Part shown: positions 19,269 to 28,043 of the stretch, one piece after another
Numbering within the stretch: the first letter of the stretch is position 1
How the letters are laid out: each line of letters begins with the position of its first letter
Assembly (NCBI RefSeq): GCF_040218225.1
Contig: NZ_JAVJQO010000006.1
Span: 310,001 to 374,000 of the forward strand
Origin: Gracilimonas sp.
GTDB taxonomy: Bacteria; Bacteroidota; Rhodothermia; Balneolales; Balneolaceae
DNA: 64,000 nt
Direction of reading: 5' to 3'
Translations under genes and position numbers: made by a program
The notes under the pieces: generated by a model
Told to the model about the DNA's origin: nothing
The model's database searches: none
Seen by the model: only the letters and a program-made list of their open reading frames with translations

Positions 19269-19844
19269 ATGATGTATATAGAAAAAGCTACCCCAAGACA
19301 TGCCAGGGGCATATTAGATATTTACAAACCTGCGCTGGAAAATACAGCAGCAAGTTTTGCTGTAAAAGCTCCTTCAATTGATGAAATAAGGCTTAAAATA
19401 GAACACACAATTGTTAGATATCCTTGGCTTGTATATGTAGTCGAATCTCAGGTAGCAGGATATGCTTATGCTAACATTCACAGGTCAAGAGAAGCTTATC
19501 AATGGTCAGTTGAACCATCTGTGTACGTTCATCCTAATCATAGAAATAAAGGTATTGGAAAGTCTCTCTATACAACATTATTCAATATCTTGACCTATCA
19601 AAACTTCGAAAAAGCTGTAGCTATTATAACGATACCAAATGAAGCAAGCATCGCATTACATAAGTCTTTTGGATTTGAACATGTAGGAGTATTCAAGAAA
19701 GCTGGATATAAGCTAGGTAAGTGGCATGATACATCCTGGTGGGAATTAAACCTAAGAAACAATATAAATTCTAAACCTAAGACGATTATACCCTTCAAAG
19801 ACATCGAAAAGGATCAACTCAACAATTTAATTAATGGATCTTAA
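19269..19844 (+). CDS. GNAT acetyltransferase, phosphinothricin/arsinothricin acetyltransferase-like
   Basis: This 191-aa protein strongly resembles the PAT/ArsN1 family: IYKPALENTAASF near the start, SREAYQWSVEPSVYVHPNHRNKGIGKSLY with the acetyl-CoA loop, and the closing GVFKKAGYKLGKWHDTSWWEL. Known members N-acetylate phosphinothricin, arsinothricin or methionine sulfoximine and protect glutamine synthetase. The start is an ATGATG pair, so residue 1 is ambiguous by one codon. It follows the NTF2-like gene by 90 bases and overlaps the next gene by 11. The C-terminal 25 residues extend beyond the usual family end. Confidence 0.85.
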   Translation: MMYIEKATPRHARGILDIYKPALENTAASFAVKAPSIDEIRLKIEHTIVRYPWLVYVVESQVAGYAYANIHRSREAYQWSVEPSVYVHPNHRNKGIGKSLYTTLFNILTYQNFEKAVAIITIPNEASIALHKSFGFEHVGVFKKAGYKLGKWHDTSWWELNLRNNINSKPKTIIPFKDIEKDQLNNLINGS

Positions 19845-20638
19845 AAAGGTCTTACTTTTCTCTTCCGGACTTATAAGTCTCCTGCTTTCAGCATATAATT
19901 TTGCCGTAAATGATACCCTGCCAAACTTAATTGTATCTCAGGTAAATAATATTGACAGTATTTCAATTTTTGAGACTAATTCCCTCTACCTTATAGTTCA
20001 CGGAATAGTACTTGGATCTATATCCCCATTCATTTTTGATAGAAGAGTAAATTTTTACAGGCAATACAAATCTTTATTATTTGCGACAGTTTCAGTGGGT
20101 TCTATTTTTATACTTTGGGATAATTAAATCCTACAAGAGTGTTTGGACATTTAATAACTCGTACTATCTTGGAATAGACTTATTTGGGCTTCCGTTAGAA
20201 GAGATCTTTTTCTTTATCACTGTCCCTATCGCTTGTCTGTTCATCAAAGAATGTTTGCAATACTTCCAAAAGATCCCATCAATCAAAAATGATGGGATAC
20301 TTATTTTAATTGGTATAGCCTATTGTACACAGCTATATACATCAACTGTTTGTTTACTAAGTGCCTCAGCCATTGGATGGCACTACGTATTTGGCAAAAT
20401 TGATACTCGATCTAAAACATACATTACGTTTGGCGTCTCACTAATTCCATTTCTAATCATCAATGGTATTTTAACTGGACTTTTTACCGAAGAACCACTG
20501 GTTCAATATAATTCGGGTGAATTTTCCGGTATTAGTATCTGTACTATACCTATAGAAGATGCAATCTACCTATTTCCGCTATTGCTACTGAATATTTCGG
20601 TATATGAAATCTTTATTTATGAGTCATCCGCTTCTTAG
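19834..20638 (+). pseudogene. Lycopene cyclase domain protein (CrtYcd-like), frameshifted near 20123
   Basis: Two overlapping frames together encode one membrane protein of the heterodimeric-type lycopene cyclase family. The first frame (19834-20127) ends FILWDN-stop. The second frame continues with IIKSYKSVWTFNN, then LPLEEIFFFITVP and, near the C-terminus, GILTGLFTEEP and CTIPIEDAIYLFP. These are family signatures. Family members usually read WD(I)IK...VW without a break. The join looks like loss of two bases in GGATAATTAAA or a one-base insertion. An N-terminal extension of about 50 residues is also present. It is either inactivated or a sequencing error; programmed frameshifting is less likely. 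Confidence 0.72.
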
Positions 20639-20819: not shown

Positions 20820-21281
20820 CTAAAATAGCCCCCTATTCCTCAACGATGTGTAGCTACCAGGAGTTAGTATTAAATGGTCATCCACTGGAATACCTAAAAT
20901 CTTTCCTCCCTCATTCACTCGCTTTGTAAGGCTGATATCGGCACTACTTGGTTTTGTGTTCCCAGACGGATGATTGTGAGCCAATAAAATGCTATTGGCC
21001 GCCGATTTGATGGCGTAAGCGAATATCATTTTAGGATCAACAATTGTAGCTGTGGCTCCACCTTTTGAAATTTCAGCTAATCCCTTAACGCCTTTGGCAT
21101 TATCAAGAAACATGACATAGAAGGACTCTACAAGCTCCATTGTCCCTTCTCGCCAATTCTCACGAAATATTTGATGGGCTAAATCTGGATTTGTTACGAC
21201 CGGGCGATCAAAATCTCTCCTGTCGGTGATATAGACCAACTCAACCTCAGTGACTTTAAATAAATCTATGCTCTCTGACAT
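20820..21281 (-). CDS. radC: RadC-family JAB/MPN domain protein
   Basis: This 153-aa protein is a short RadC with the JAB metal motif H102-N-H104-PSGNTKPSSAD115 after SILLAHN. The N-terminal helix-hairpin-helix of full RadC is absent, as in the versions common on Bacteroidota mobile elements. The start is the ATG at 21281, which has a perfect GGAGG ribosome-binding site 4 bases upstream. That site lies in the 3' arm of a 9-bp hairpin. Biochemical function of RadC is unsettled; a nuclease or deubiquitinase-like role has been suggested for JAB proteins. A decayed copy sits 2.3 kb away. Confidence 0.88.
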   Translation of the reverse strand: MSESIDLFKVTEVELVYITDRRDFDRPVVTNPDLAHQIFRENWREGTMELVESFYVMFLDNAKGVKGLAEISKGGATATIVDPKMIFAYAIKSAANSILLAHNHPSGNTKPSSADISLTKRVNEGGKILGIPVDDHLILTPGSYTSLRNRGLF

Positions 21282-21311
21282 AAAACCTCCTTTAATAGAT
21301 TTGGAGGTTTT
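21282..21311 (-). promoter_or_regulatory. radC leader hairpin that sequesters the ribosome-binding site
   Basis: In the mRNA, AAAACCTCC pairs perfectly over 9 bases with GGAGGTTTT across a 12-base A/T-rich loop. The 3' arm contains the complete Shine-Dalgarno GGAGG and directly abuts the AUG. The same architecture, with a G-U pair replacing A-U, is kept in the remnant copy at 23608-23633. A translational switch is inferred. Confidence 0.7.
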
Positions 21312-21406
21312 TATATCTCTAATCACATAGAATTAGTACGCACAAAAAAGGCCATCTTTCGATGACCCCAAAAAACTTCAACTAATTGCTCTCTTGATAA
21401 CGAAAA

Positions 21407-21670
21407 CTAGCAATCTGGAATATTATCTAAATTATCGGTGCAAGAGCTATTCGGATCTGTGCGTAGATATTTTCCATTTACGCCGTTTACGACATGGATA
21501 TCAGCACGTCGACCATACGAATCCTGTACATAATAGGTGTGCGTATTGTTCTCGATCTCATTTATAGCTGAAGATTTACCTTTTGGACTCCAGTATTGAC
21601 CTGGATTACATAGAGACGTGATGTCACCATCACTATCTTTTCCGGACTTTGTGACTCTTCGGTCTGCCAT
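21407..21670 (-). CDS. DUF3892 domain protein
   Basis: This 87-aa acidic protein begins ADRRVTKSGKDSDGDITSLCNPG and ends YLRTDPNSSCTDNLDNIPDC, which I recognise as the DUF3892 pattern (ITxLxxPG, YYVQ, YLRT and a final DNL..LP-C). It contains three Cys. No function is known for the family. It follows the 56-aa basic protein gene by 18 bases and the LRAT-like gene before that, so the three appear to form one minus-strand operon. Confidence 0.7.
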   Translation of the reverse strand: MADRRVTKSGKDSDGDITSLCNPGQYWSPKGKSSAINEIENNTHTYYVQDSYGRRADIHVVNGVNGKYLRTDPNSSCTDNLDNIPDC

Positions 21671-21870: not shown

Positions 21871-22275
21871 CTATCTTTTTGATGTTAATGTTAAAAGTAA
21901 TCCAGTTCCTACGATGAAGGCTGTTGACCAACCCGCAAGTTGTGGACTTTGTGGCTTGAGAGAAAAAGCATCTGAAACAAGATGCTCACAATTGTAGGAA
22001 AATAAATTATATGGACGCTCTAGTAAGCTGTATGCTTTTTGTACAGCTCTCTGTCCTAGCATGAAATTATCTGGGACTGACACAATTGAAAGCTCTTGGC
22101 CGCCAAGAAAATCTTCAAGTGTATGTTCTACGACTTTTCCATACTTGGGTGTATTTGATATTACAGTTGGTTGGCCGTAATGATAATTACCAGTAACGAT
22201 CCCAACATGCTTTATAAACGTTTTGGGCACTGAAATAACAGTCCCAATCTGAAATTTTGAATTATTTACCGGCAT
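21871..22275 (-). CDS. LRAT-like (NlpC/P60 permuted) cysteine hydrolase/acyltransferase with C-terminal membrane anchor
   Basis: This 134-aa protein has the lecithin:retinol acyltransferase layout: a catalytic His in KHVGIVTGN (H23), a second polar position in VVEHTLEDFL (H51) and the hallmark YNCEHLV with nucleophile C96. A hydrophobic tail, AFIVGTGLLLTLTSKR, can anchor it in the membrane. Relatives are phospholipases, acyltransferases or amidases that use a thioester intermediate. An AGAGGAA site precedes the ATG. It is the first gene of a trio and diverges from the XRE gene across shared operators, which suggests a regulated effector role. Confidence 0.78.
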   Translation of the reverse strand: MPVNNSKFQIGTVISVPKTFIKHVGIVTGNYHYGQPTVISNTPKYGKVVEHTLEDFLGGQELSIVSVPDNFMLGQRAVQKAYSLLERPYNLFSYNCEHLVSDAFSLKPQSPQLAGWSTAFIVGTGLLLTLTSKR

Positions 22276-23391: not shown

Positions 23392-23668
23392 GAAATTTTC
23401 AGCTAGTCCTTTCACGCCTTTGGCATTATTAAGAAACATAACATTAAAGACTCTACTTGCTCCATTATTCCCTGTCGCCAATTCTTATGAAAGATTTGAT
23501 GGGCTAAATCTGGATTGGTTTCGACCAGACGATCAAAATCTCGCCTATCGGTTATATACACCAACTCAACCTCGGTAACTTTAAATAAATCTATTCTCTC
23601 TGACTTGAACCTCCTTTGATAAATTTGGAGGCTTTATAACCATAAGCGCACTTTATAGATACGCACAT
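23392..23668 (-). pseudogene. Decayed 5' copy of radC with its leader
   Basis: This stretch is clearly homologous to the first half of the intact radC gene and its leader (21067-21345). Read in the coding direction it gives SERIDLFKVTEVELVYITD and NPDLAHQIF. The ATG is destroyed (GGAGGTTCAAGTC in place of GGAGGTTTTATGTC), one base is lost after the VES codons, and the JAB half is missing. The leader hairpin around the ribosome-binding site is still recognisable. It is a direct repeat of the functional copy and encloses the LRAT/XRE module. Confidence 0.88.
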
Positions 23669-23671
23669 TTT

Positions 23672-24178
23672 TTAATTATCAACCAAATGGAACTGATTCG
23701 AAATACTTACTTTATGACTCTTGACACCAAATGGAGTAACTAGTGTCATATTCAATTCGATACTTCCATTACAAACTTCAGTATCATTAAACTGCTCCTT
23801 AGCTCTTTTTTCACCACTAAATCCAAGGTACTTATTAAAAGAATAGTCCTGACTGTAAGTACCCGATTTCAAGCTTATGAATTTAGTGCTAGGTATAGTG
23901 ACAAATTTTTTCCTGCCAATGTCGCACTCAATTTGAATAGACAGAATTTCATAATCGTAATAAGGCGAGTAATTACTAGCAGCTAAATCGATTCTAAAAT
24001 ATGTATCGTGACCTCGACAAAAAATTTTTGGAACATCCTTTAGTTCAACTCTTATCAGTTCCAAATCGAGTGGAAAAAACTTTTTCTGGAGATATTTTGA
24101 AAACTTAGAAATCACCCAGAGAAAAGATCTTTTTACAACATAAAAAGCAGGTTTAGTAGCTGATATAAGTTCACTCAT
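23672..24178 (-). CDS. Unknown beta-rich protein encoded with the TIR gene
   Basis: I do not recognise this 168-aa protein. It has a hydrophobic amphipathic N-terminal helix (residues 10-35, VVKRSFLWVISKFSKYLQKK) and then alternating strands with FRIDLAASNYS, ILSIQIECDIG, KFVTIPS and GSIELNMTLVTPFG. These suggest an immunoglobulin-like sandwich. Its ATG lies 9 bases after the TIR gene stop behind a GAAGGAA site, so the two are almost certainly co-translated. It may be a membrane-associated sensor or a specificity partner of the TIR protein; this is inference only. Confidence 0.6.
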   Translation of the reverse strand: MSELISATKPAFYVVKRSFLWVISKFSKYLQKKFFPLDLELIRVELKDVPKIFCRGHDTYFRIDLAASNYSPYYDYEILSIQIECDIGRKKFVTIPSTKFISLKSGTYSQDYSFNKYLGFSGEKRAKEQFNDTEVCNGSIELNMTLVTPFGVKSHKVSISNQFHLVDN

Positions 24179-24187
24179 TTCCTTCTC

Positions 24188-25168
24188 TCACATTCTTTGG
24201 AAAATTTTATACAGCTCATCCAATTTCCTCTCCTTCAGATCTTTCAATGAAGTAATTGGTTTTGCTAAATCCAGCCTTTCATTGGCTATTTTATGAACAT
24301 CTTTATTCGAAAACCCCATTTGAGTTGCCTTAGTATATATAGATTTATATGTCTGTTTTCTCCAAGCTTCATTATTTGGTCTCCTTAATGTCTTTCTTTT
24401 AATACCGATTTGTTGACGAAGCCATTTAATAACATCAGGATATTTTTCCTTCGGTATTGTCTTATAGGAAGTGACTTTGAAAGTGTTATAAAGCTTAGAG
24501 TACCACTCGCCATATGAACTACCTTTTCCTGCTTCTTCACTTATTTTAGAAAGAACTCCTACTAATCTTTTAACCTCGAATGCATCTTCTTCAGTAATAT
24601 GTATCTCCGATGGTATTATCTCCTTTCTGATAACTTTTTTATCCGTCTGAATATAATCTCGACCGACTTGAATGTTCCCATCTCCCTTAGCTATTTGCTT
24701 TATATAAGAGTCAGGTTTTTGTTTCATTATTTTTTCAGAAGATTTCAGGTCTGAGGGTTTGCGCTTTTTATTAATAATCGCATCAATATCTGATAAGAGT
24801 TTTTTCTTCATTTCCATTGCAGATAAACCTACTAGATCTAAATACACAATCTGTGAGAGCAACCCTTCTAAGCTACATTCTCTTACACGTATGGGTATGA
24901 GAAATTGAAACTCACCGGTTGGGTCTTTCGCAAAAGCTGCTGCCCATTCCGGTTGTGTAAATTTTGAAGCAAGATAATCCGGAGATAGAACTGCAATCGT
25001 TCGCTTGGCTTTTTTGGCAGCTTCATCCATTTTAAGTACAAAGTTCGATCCAGTGCCAAAGTCCCCTGATTGCATCATGCAAGAATATCCCACCTCCTCT
25101 AGCCAACCCTTTAAGCGTTGGGCCATAAAAGAGTCTTGCTTGTTGTAGCTTATAAAAAAATCGACCAT
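24188..25168 (-). CDS. TIR-domain protein with C-terminal ORF6C-like domain
   Basis: This 326-aa protein starts with a TIR domain (1-135): DFFISYNKQD, LSPDYLASKFTQPEW with the candidate NADase Glu at 74, and LIPIRVRECSLEGLL. A glycine-rich linker, GDGNIQVGRDYIQ (163-174), is a motif seen in bacterial immune proteins. The C-terminal half has an ORF6C-like segment, SKLYNTFKVTSYKTIPKEKY (about 224-243), a DNA-associated fold from phage antirepressors. TIR proteins of this kind often deplete NAD+ during phage defence. The gene is coupled to an unknown 168-aa gene in a mobile island. Confidence 0.82.
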   Translation of the reverse strand: MVDFFISYNKQDSFMAQRLKGWLEEVGYSCMMQSGDFGTGSNFVLKMDEAAKKAKRTIAVLSPDYLASKFTQPEWAAAFAKDPTGEFQFLIPIRVRECSLEGLLSQIVYLDLVGLSAMEMKKKLLSDIDAIINKKRKPSDLKSSEKIMKQKPDSYIKQIAKGDGNIQVGRDYIQTDKKVIRKEIIPSEIHITEEDAFEVKRLVGVLSKISEEAGKGSSYGEWYSKLYNTFKVTSYKTIPKEKYPDVIKWLRQQIGIKRKTLRRPNNEAWRKQTYKSIYTKATQMGFSNKDVHKIANERLDLAKPITSLKDLKERKLDELYKIFQRM

Positions 25169-25244: not shown

Positions 25245-25826
25245 TTATTTTCTTACAAAATCTAACAATGATTCATAGTTGTGCACATCAGCAGATCTGA
25301 GAGCTTGTATATAAGCTGTCCTTACATCCCCTTCTTCTAACAAACTCCCTGATCCCCAACTAAATGGCCCTTGATCAAGTGCTTTTTCAAGTAAGACATC
25401 TGTCATTACTCGTGCATGCCGACCGTTACCATTCGGGAATAAATGAATTTGTACAAGCCTGTGATGAAAACGTGTTGCAATTTCATCTGGTGAATAGGTT
25501 TCATGATCTATCCAGTACCGGACATCGTCCAACAATTGTCGAAAATGTATTGGAATTTGCGCCCAATCTACACCGATATTTTTATCCGTTTGGCGATAGT
25601 CACCTGCCCAAGCCCAAACCTTACCAAACATCTCTTCATGAAGCTTTCGAATGAACTCTTCACTCAGATAATCTTTTCGCCGTGTACGATCTAACCAACT
25701 GTAGGCATCGATAATATTCCTTTGCTCCCATTCATTGAGTTCTTCCCGTGTACTGATATGAGGAATGAGAAGTCCTTCCTTCTCATCCTCATCAATTGGA
25801 GTTGCTCCTTCTGGATAATCAAACAT
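25245..25826 (-). CDS. Mobile mystery protein B (Fic/DOC-family toxin)
   Basis: This 193-aa Fic-domain protein has the active-site loop HLFPNGNGRHAR (residues 128-139), fitting HxFx(D/N)GNGR for AMP or nucleotide transfer. It has the typical mobile-mystery-B beginning, DYPEGATPIDEDEKEGLLIPHI, and KVWAWAGDYRQTDKNIGV. The TIGR family is always paired with an HTH protein and is thought to be an addiction module. Its start lies 3 bases after the mystery A stop. No inhibitory (S/T)xxxE(G/N) helix is obvious at the N-terminus, so control may be by the partner. Confidence 0.9.
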   Translation of the reverse strand: MFDYPEGATPIDEDEKEGLLIPHISTREELNEWEQRNIIDAYSWLDRTRRKDYLSEEFIRKLHEEMFGKVWAWAGDYRQTDKNIGVDWAQIPIHFRQLLDDVRYWIDHETYSPDEIATRFHHRLVQIHLFPNGNGRHARVMTDVLLEKALDQGPFSWGSGSLLEEGDVRTAYIQALRSADVHNYESLLDFVRK

Positions 25827-25829
25827 CTA

Positions 25830-26291
25830 CTAATCCCAAAAATTCTTAGGTTCTTCGACCAGAATTTTATCCACCAGATCATTCAGAGCTTCCTCCTGCT
25901 CCTCATCAGAGACTCCCTGAAGCTCTAACTTCATTGAATGGTCTATCCGATTCAATCGCTTTTTGGCAATTTTCAAGGCCTGTTCACGGACTATTTTCTC
26001 AAGGTCTTGTTCTGGCACAAAACCATAGACAAACTTCACCCCTAACCCATCAGCCATTTTCTTCAAGGTTGAGAGTTTTACATCACCATTGACTTCAGCT
26101 TGCTCAATCCTGTAAACCCGTGCCCGGTCAAGGTCAACTCGACTACCTAATTCTTCTAATGTCATGCCCAATCCCTCACGAATAGCATTTATCCATCCGC
26201 CAGAAGGCACCGCCATTTTCAGGAGAGGTTTAAGCTTCTTCAATTTCTTATCAAGCTGTTTGCGTATAAGCTTTTTATCCCAATAGTTCAT
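25830..26291 (-). CDS. Mobile mystery protein A (HTH antitoxin-type regulator)
   Basis: This 153-aa protein has a basic coiled N-terminus (LIRKQLDKKLKKLKPL), then an XRE-type HTH at about 35-95 (MTLEELGSRVDLDRARVYRIEQAE), and a helical acidic tail. The pattern matches mobile mystery protein A, the obligatory upstream partner of the Fic protein that follows. Four evenly spaced 18-bp dyads lie immediately upstream of its start and are its probable operators. Autorepression of the pair is inferred from this layout and from the addiction-module model for the family. Confidence 0.88.
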   Translation of the reverse strand: MNYWDKKLIRKQLDKKLKKLKPLLKMAVPSGGWINAIREGLGMTLEELGSRVDLDRARVYRIEQAEVNGDVKLSTLKKMADGLGVKFVYGFVPEQDLEKIVREQALKIAKKRLNRIDHSMKLELQGVSDEEQEEALNDLVDKILVEEPKNFWD

Positions 26292-26780: not shown

Positions 26781-28043
26781 ATGATTGACAGTAAGAAAGC
26801 TATAGAGCTAGAAAACAAATATGGTGCACACAATTACCATCCCCTTCCGGTAGTACTTTCCAAGGGAAAGGGTGTTCACCTGTGGGATCCTGAAGGCAAT
26901 CAATACTATGATTTTCTTTCTGCATATTCGGCCGTAAATCAAGGGCACAGCCACCCTGATATTCTTAAGGCCTTAACTGAACAGGCAAATACATTGAGCC
27001 TGACCTCAAGGGCGTTTTATAACAATGTGCTTGGTGAGTATGAAAAGTATGTGACTGAATATTTTGGTTTTGACAAGGTGCTCCCAATGAACACTGGTGC
27101 GGAAGGCGTTGAGACAGCTATAAAAATATGCCGGAAATGGGCGTATGAAAAAAAGGGAATTCCTGAGGAAGAGGCTCAGATCATAGTTTTAGAAAATAAT
27201 TTTCATGGGCGTACTACAACAGTAATTTCTTTCTCAAATGATCCGGATGCAAGAAAAAATTTCGGGCCATACACACCAGGGTTTATCAAGATTCCATACA
27301 ATGATATTGAAGCACTTGAAGAAGCTCTTAAGCAGCCAAATATAGCCGGCTTGCTGGCCGAGCCAATCCAGGGTGAAGCTGGTGTTGTAGTTCCGGATAA
27401 TGACTACATACCAAAAGCAGCAGCCCTATGTAAAGAAAACAATGTCCTTTTTATAGCCGACGAAATTCAAACAGGTATTGCCCGTACTGGAAGCCTGCTG
27501 GCTGTATGCGGCGACTGCACATGTGAGGGTAATTGTGAACGTCAGTCAACCTATACCAAACCGGACATGCTCATCCTTGGAAAAGCATTATCGGGTGGAG
27601 CATATCCGGTGTCTGCAGTGTTAGCTGATAATCATATTATGGAGGTTATTAAACCAGGCCAGCATGGATCAACTTATGGCGGAAACCCTCTTGCATGTAA
27701 AGTAGCTATTGCCGCCTTGGATGTAGTTCAGAATGAGAAGCTGGCTCAAAATGCCCGCAGCCTGGGAGTACTCTTCCGGGCTGAGATGCAAAAACTTGTG
27801 GATGAGTTTGACTTATTTGTAAAGGTTCGCGGAAAAGGACTTCTGAATGCGGTAGTGATCAACGACTCGCCGGATAGCGATACCGCGTGGAGATTTTGCC
27901 TTTCTTTAAAAGACAATGGTCTCCTTGCCAAACCTACTCATGGAAATATTATTCGCTTTGCTCCGCCTCTTGTTATGACTGAAGAACAGCTCCTGGATTG
28001 TGTTCGCATAATTCGGGAAACGCTTATAAACTTTACGAAATAA
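26781..28043 (+). CDS. rocD: Ornithine--oxo-acid aminotransferase
   Basis: This 420-aa fold-type I PLP enzyme converts ornithine and 2-oxoglutarate to glutamate semialdehyde and glutamate. [41 protein letters not shown] and [19 protein letters not shown] with the PLP Lys are diagnostic of RocD/OAT. A Cys-rich insert ([20 protein letters not shown]) before the PLP Lys is a feature of the Bacteroidota-type enzymes. It lies alone downstream of the tRNA gene and is convergent with the response regulator gene, 5 bases apart. Confidence 0.93.

Follow-up and report, generated by a model that had tools for sequence, protein, structure and literature searches.

In TIR defence proteins, the TIR domain is found with a wide variety of sensor halves. 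Among the described systems, Thoeris is only loosely comparable with the protein presented here: its ThsB models match the TIR domain weakly and partially (14.5 and 12.4 bits; PADLOC), and the adjacent genes have other identities or are orphan, none of them being a ThsA NAD-binding/SLOG effector. For the other half of the protein, a fold comparison is offered by the Stl2-Sak pair; Stl2, the repressor of SaPI2, senses phage recombinases, and the C-terminal helical bundle of Sak, the annealase of phage 80alpha, is bound by Stl2 and works with the SSB tail (PMC11846896). A bacterial RHIM-like amyloid motif, BASS3, has also been described (PMC8086366, PMC7885112).

Layout of the locus

The window (the whole 64,000-nucleotide stretch of Gracilimonas sp. 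DNA that we analysed) contains two co-directional open reading frames on the minus strand, at the positions from which the sequence-only reading had proposed a two-gene defence system. The features of the locus, all on the minus strand, are as follows.

23646-23664, minus strand: terminator-like hairpin directly 3' of the partner stop (sequence scan, weak)
23672-24178, minus strand: orphan partner gene, 168 aa, with a predicted N-terminal amphipathic helix and then strands (ORF listing, structure model)
24188-25168, minus strand: TIR-module protein, whole gene, 326 aa (ORF listing, Pfam, structure prediction)
24188-24388, minus strand: second helical part of the module, aa 261-326 (aligned throughout with the Chlorobiales relatives; pLDDT mostly 86-91)
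24389-24601, minus strand: ORF6C-like helical part of the module, aa 190-260 (Pfam, PHROGs, structure match)
24641-24688, minus strand: linker motif GNIQVGRDYIQTDK, approximately aa 161-176 (position conserved with the Chlorobiales relatives)
24824-25159, minus strand: TIR domain, aa 4-115, with the E74 codon at approximately 24947-24949 (Pfam TIR_2)
25245-25826, minus strand: mobile mystery protein B (Fic), 76 bp before the TIR start (NCBIfam TIGR02612/TIGR02613 pair, above cut-off)
25830-26291, minus strand: mobile mystery protein A (XRE) (NCBIfam TIGR02612 or TIGR02613 pair, above cut-off)

The TIR stop and the partner start are separated by the expected 9 bases, which include a Shine-Dalgarno-like AGAAGGA; the junction reads ...AATG TGA GAGAAGGAA ATG AGT.... 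Terminator-like hairpins of the kind found after the partner gene numbered 3 in the scan versus 1.6 expected by chance. The island neighbours RadC, an ImmA-like M78 peptidase, and Fic were all identified as the earlier reading had described them. The Fic motif HLFPNGNGR is intact in mobile mystery protein B. Between RadC and the HTH/ImmA pair lie genes for an LRAT-like small protein (Pfam LRAT; 21871-22275, minus strand) and a DUF3892 protein (21407-21670, minus strand).

The TIR domain and its relatives

Residues 4-115 match Pfam TIR_2 with an E value of 2e-25 (90.1 bits versus a cut-off of 28 bits; profile positions 1-111 of 122), in agreement with the TIR domain and likely catalytic Glu74 read from the sequence. 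The closest TIRs that we found are 44-57% identical to that of the window, are plasmid-borne (Methylobacterium, Agrobacterium, cyanobacteria, Planococcus, Bosea, and Prosthecochloris), and keep E74 in all 8 cases. In two of these relatives the equivalent Glu aligns with the Glu of the solved bacterial TIR 3h16 (PdTIR), and in one of those two it also aligns with the Glu of the CRISPR-associated TIR Cat1. Since E74 is invariant and the family Glu is aligned with those of 3h16 and Cat1, cleavage of NAD+ by the window TIR through E74 is plausible from sequence. The predicted structure has a pLDDT of 41-48 around E74, too low for judging active-site geometry, and Foldseek/VIA gave weak matches for this part, predominantly to anticodon-binding-type alpha/beta folds. 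The top PDB entries, mostly tRNA-synthetase anticodon-binding domains, share a similar alpha/beta fold and were set aside as uninformative.

The plasmid and cyanobacterial proteins resemble the window protein in the TIR domain and its Glu, but their C-termini are unrelated to it (NB-ARC/TPR in Prosthecochloris; beta-rich or short tails elsewhere), and they have no clear Q-x-G linker of the window type, a loose AQTG pattern being present in one of the eight. A TIR protein on a viral contig, 48% identical to the window TIR, bears what we take, from its sequence and general knowledge, to be NB-ARC/TPR-type domains. The Methylobacterium TIR (L050, 3474-4190) carries a GDGVAAGRDATGITINKG tail and probably contains a membrane segment; glycine/GRD motifs of this kind may make up a broader class of short tails through which TIR proteins polymerise.

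The C-terminal module and the linker

The C-terminus had been called ORF6C-like and, through that domain, linked to phage. By Pfam the assignment holds in relatives with the same module and falls short in the window protein itself, which scores 17.6 versus a cut-off of 22 bits; among the relatives, ORF6C (PF10552) scores were 22.7 for one Chlorobiales protein and 25.9 and 26.4 for phage repressors, with one further score of 21.6 that just misses. Using residues 149-326 as the query against 394 genomes of the phylum, we found two further proteins with this module, both from Chlorobiales (L009, LUZT01000006.1, and L010, NZ_JAIOZR010000020.1; E values 1.5e-34 and 5.5e-33) and approximately 42% identical to the window protein across the whole module, linker included. 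A scan of genome contigs returned the same two loci and no others; the module is rare, occurring in 3/394 phylum genomes and 1/244 class genomes. Where the window protein has its TIR domain, both Chlorobiales proteins have an N-terminal Schlafen SLFN_AlbA_2 domain. The Chlorobium module gene (L010, 880-5086) is located among uncharacterised genes (DUF6236 and two unknowns), possibly another island.

The connection to phage surfaced solely through PHROGs and through the use of a Chlorobiales relative as the query; single-sequence searches of viral contigs, plasmids, and phages with the whole TIR protein or its C-terminus returned no relatives. In PHROGs, the window module matches phrog_17822 outside the HTH part (1.2e-10, profile positions 110-258 of 267); other matches to this profile in the phylum covered the HTH only (profile positions ~1-109) and were discarded. 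With the Chlorobium module as a tblastn query, we recovered a CI-like repressor of Pseudomonas phage Gregale (Casadabanvirus) over all 192 aa (2e-9), the gene for which adjoins a Ner-like antirepressor gene and a transposase, and more repressors of this type were located in viral contigs. The Gregale repressor, those of related transposable phages, and phrog_17822 have the same linker, ORF6C-like part, and helical C-terminus, with 25-29% identity between the phage repressors and the window module or its Chlorobiales relatives; these repressors are products of phage lysogeny genes and carry an N-terminal HTH DNA-binding domain, whereas the window protein has no HTH. Both repressors tested (Gregale and one from a viral contig) contain an HTH and score above the cut-off for ORF6C, and the best viral structure match to the module is a stand-alone phage ORF6C protein of 181 aa (1.8e-9, 34% identity).

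One module is therefore joined to three N-terminal domains, namely, TIR, Schlafen AlbA_2, and HTH, and the window protein is modular, a swappable effector on a phage-regulator-derived module. The suspected phage link is borne out in that the module is shared with phage repressors and genuinely related to phage regulators. Because the same tail occurs with a different effector in other bacteria, it is probably the tail that senses phage and the front end that acts, and the role of the module is probably in sensing or oligomerising; the presence of one tail on two different effectors also means that the sensor half can be separated from the effector and tested. The fusion of TIR and module was found in a single copy, that of the window, and with only one such protein known, it could have arisen by chance.

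No part of the protein is modelled better than the module, with residues 190-326 helical at a pLDDT of mostly 84-93. In the predicted structure, residues 191-260 can be superposed on 139-204 of 8qe9 chain 1A (Z score of 9.6, root mean square deviation of 1.5 Å over 66 residues), a chain that we identified as the Sak annealase from the paper's chain naming (1B = Sak) and domain limits (PMC11846896); the same chain naming speaks against a match to the Stl repressor. The Sak C-terminal bundle thus resembles the predicted ORF6C part in fold, but a comparison of Sak C-termini with the module gave no sequence-profile support (hhalign probability of 0.1%). As small helical bundles can also match by arrangement alone, we treat this modelled likeness as a lead and make no claim of homology.

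The linker GNIQVGRDYI is present at residues 164-173, as had been read. The equivalent segments in the Chlorobiales proteins are NLQVGVNQGTI and ITQIGINEGTV, and the forms in phage repressors are related but degenerate. The RHIM core tetrad is [VI]-Q-[VILC]-G, which IQVG (residues 166-169) fits, and no other RHIM-type tetrad was found in the 7598 aa of the remaining window proteins. The segment is modelled as disordered, with a pLDDT of ~30. The BASS motifs so far described are terminal (PMC8086366), whereas the window IQVG sits between two domains; amyloid-type signalling through the linker is a possibility only.

Mode of action, rival readings, and genomic setting

We tentatively favour, with somewhat less than even confidence, a stand-alone anti-phage TIR effector that responds to a signal from the phage. 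Its C-terminal module, of the phage-repressor kind, would detect a phage-derived protein or DNA state; once engaged it would oligomerise and draw the TIR domains together, a clustering that the flexible, IQVG-containing linker would permit. The N-terminal TIR would be the killing part, halting infection by depleting NAD+, most likely through E74, and the adjacent orphan would serve as an accessory, not as the obligatory half of a conserved pair. If the sensor half is indeed borrowed from phage lysogeny repressors, it would provide a direct route from the phage's own switch to an immune trigger, and the poorly understood ORF6C domain would gain a testable role. A more specific form of this scheme seems improbable to us: the module would be a domesticated phage-repressor sensor of a phage replication or recombination component, mounted on interchangeable effectors (TIR, Schlafen AlbA_2), with a RHIM-like linker driving TIR clustering. 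SSB-coated single-stranded DNA and an annealing protein are named as example triggers because of the fold match to the Sak bundle.

The partner is probably a real gene, since its open frame of 171 codons exceeds the longest (146 codons) that arose among 60 random 8-kb sequences matched to it in composition. Its family is as unrecognised as was first reported: Pfam, NCBIfam, PADLOC, and PDB returned nothing for it, PHROGs nothing significant, and searches of 394 genomes of the phylum, 244 of the class, plasmids, phages, and viral contigs gave no credible relatives; weak matches (E values of 0.003 or higher, many of them interrupted by stops) were dismissed as chance. As to the description of it as beta-rich, strands follow a helix at residues 8-34 in the model, but this single-sequence model is poor (pLDDT of 47), too poor to serve as a fold-search query. 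By sequence, the N-terminal helix is amphipathic (hydrophobic moment of 0.58, residues 15-32).

A true two-gene system, in which the orphan is required, for example as a sensor, a membrane-targeting adaptor, or an inhibitor of the TIR, would account for the 9-bp spacing, the Shine-Dalgarno-like sequence, the common strand, and the terminator-like hairpin after the orphan, as well as for a frame of a length unlikely to arise by chance. Set against this, the orphan is missing beside both Chlorobiales module genes and has no relatives in any of the collections searched, and there is one TIR-module copy for comparison; the idea of a conserved pair is weakened, and we consider an obligatory two-gene system unlikely. 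The partner may instead be an accessory (e.g., a membrane anchor, adaptor, or inhibitor) or a passenger. The unit might also extend in the other direction, the TIR gene being the cargo of a mobile cassette in a toxin-antitoxin-like or four-gene arrangement with the upstream XRE/Fic mobile mystery genes A and B. All four genes are co-directional, Fic and TIR being 76 bp apart, and this gap has no promoter- or terminator-like match on the minus strand in a scan that omits Bacteroidota promoters; mobile mystery A/B is, however, a family of its own, and we regard such a unit as quite improbable.

The least probable reading, and in our judgement a very doubtful one, is that the protein regulates without killing, its TIR lacking NADase activity and serving, on a repressor-derived module, as a scaffold for protein interactions. 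TIR domains can act as scaffolds, the module is otherwise known from repressors, and the TIR model is uncertain at the active site, but the catalytic-type Glu and the invariant family residues are retained, and Pfam detects no DNA-binding HTH in the window protein.

The stand-alone effector is also to be viewed in its genomic setting. An aminotransferase gene (26781-28043) was found in 8/9 genus relatives, and all eight share with the window a tRNA-Met located just upstream of this gene; past the tRNA-Met, gene content in the genus relatives is mostly unlike that of the window. In a sister genome (G001), the slot beside the tRNA-Met (L070, 429-9742) holds GajA (Gabija), a type IIG restriction-modification protein, a methyltransferase, and a PDC-S18 candidate, together with a RadC gene that is 93% identical in DNA to the window RadC. 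The locus beside the tRNA-Met is a defence-gene hotspot, and this location suggests a defence role by association; the defence-type neighbourhood that had been described is upheld by the GajA and restriction-modification genes occupying the corresponding slot of a sister species beside the same RadC. We looked for a direct repeat of the tRNA-Met end marking the insertion boundary and did not find one. Searches of nine genus relatives did not find a lycopene-cyclase-like gene that the window has at 20081-20638 (plus strand; region 19834-20638), and the variable region may thus reach past the RadC-Fic stretch. A truncated second copy of the 5' part of RadC (23397-23645), approximately 2 kb from the intact RadC (20820-21326), points to duplication or recombination within the island.
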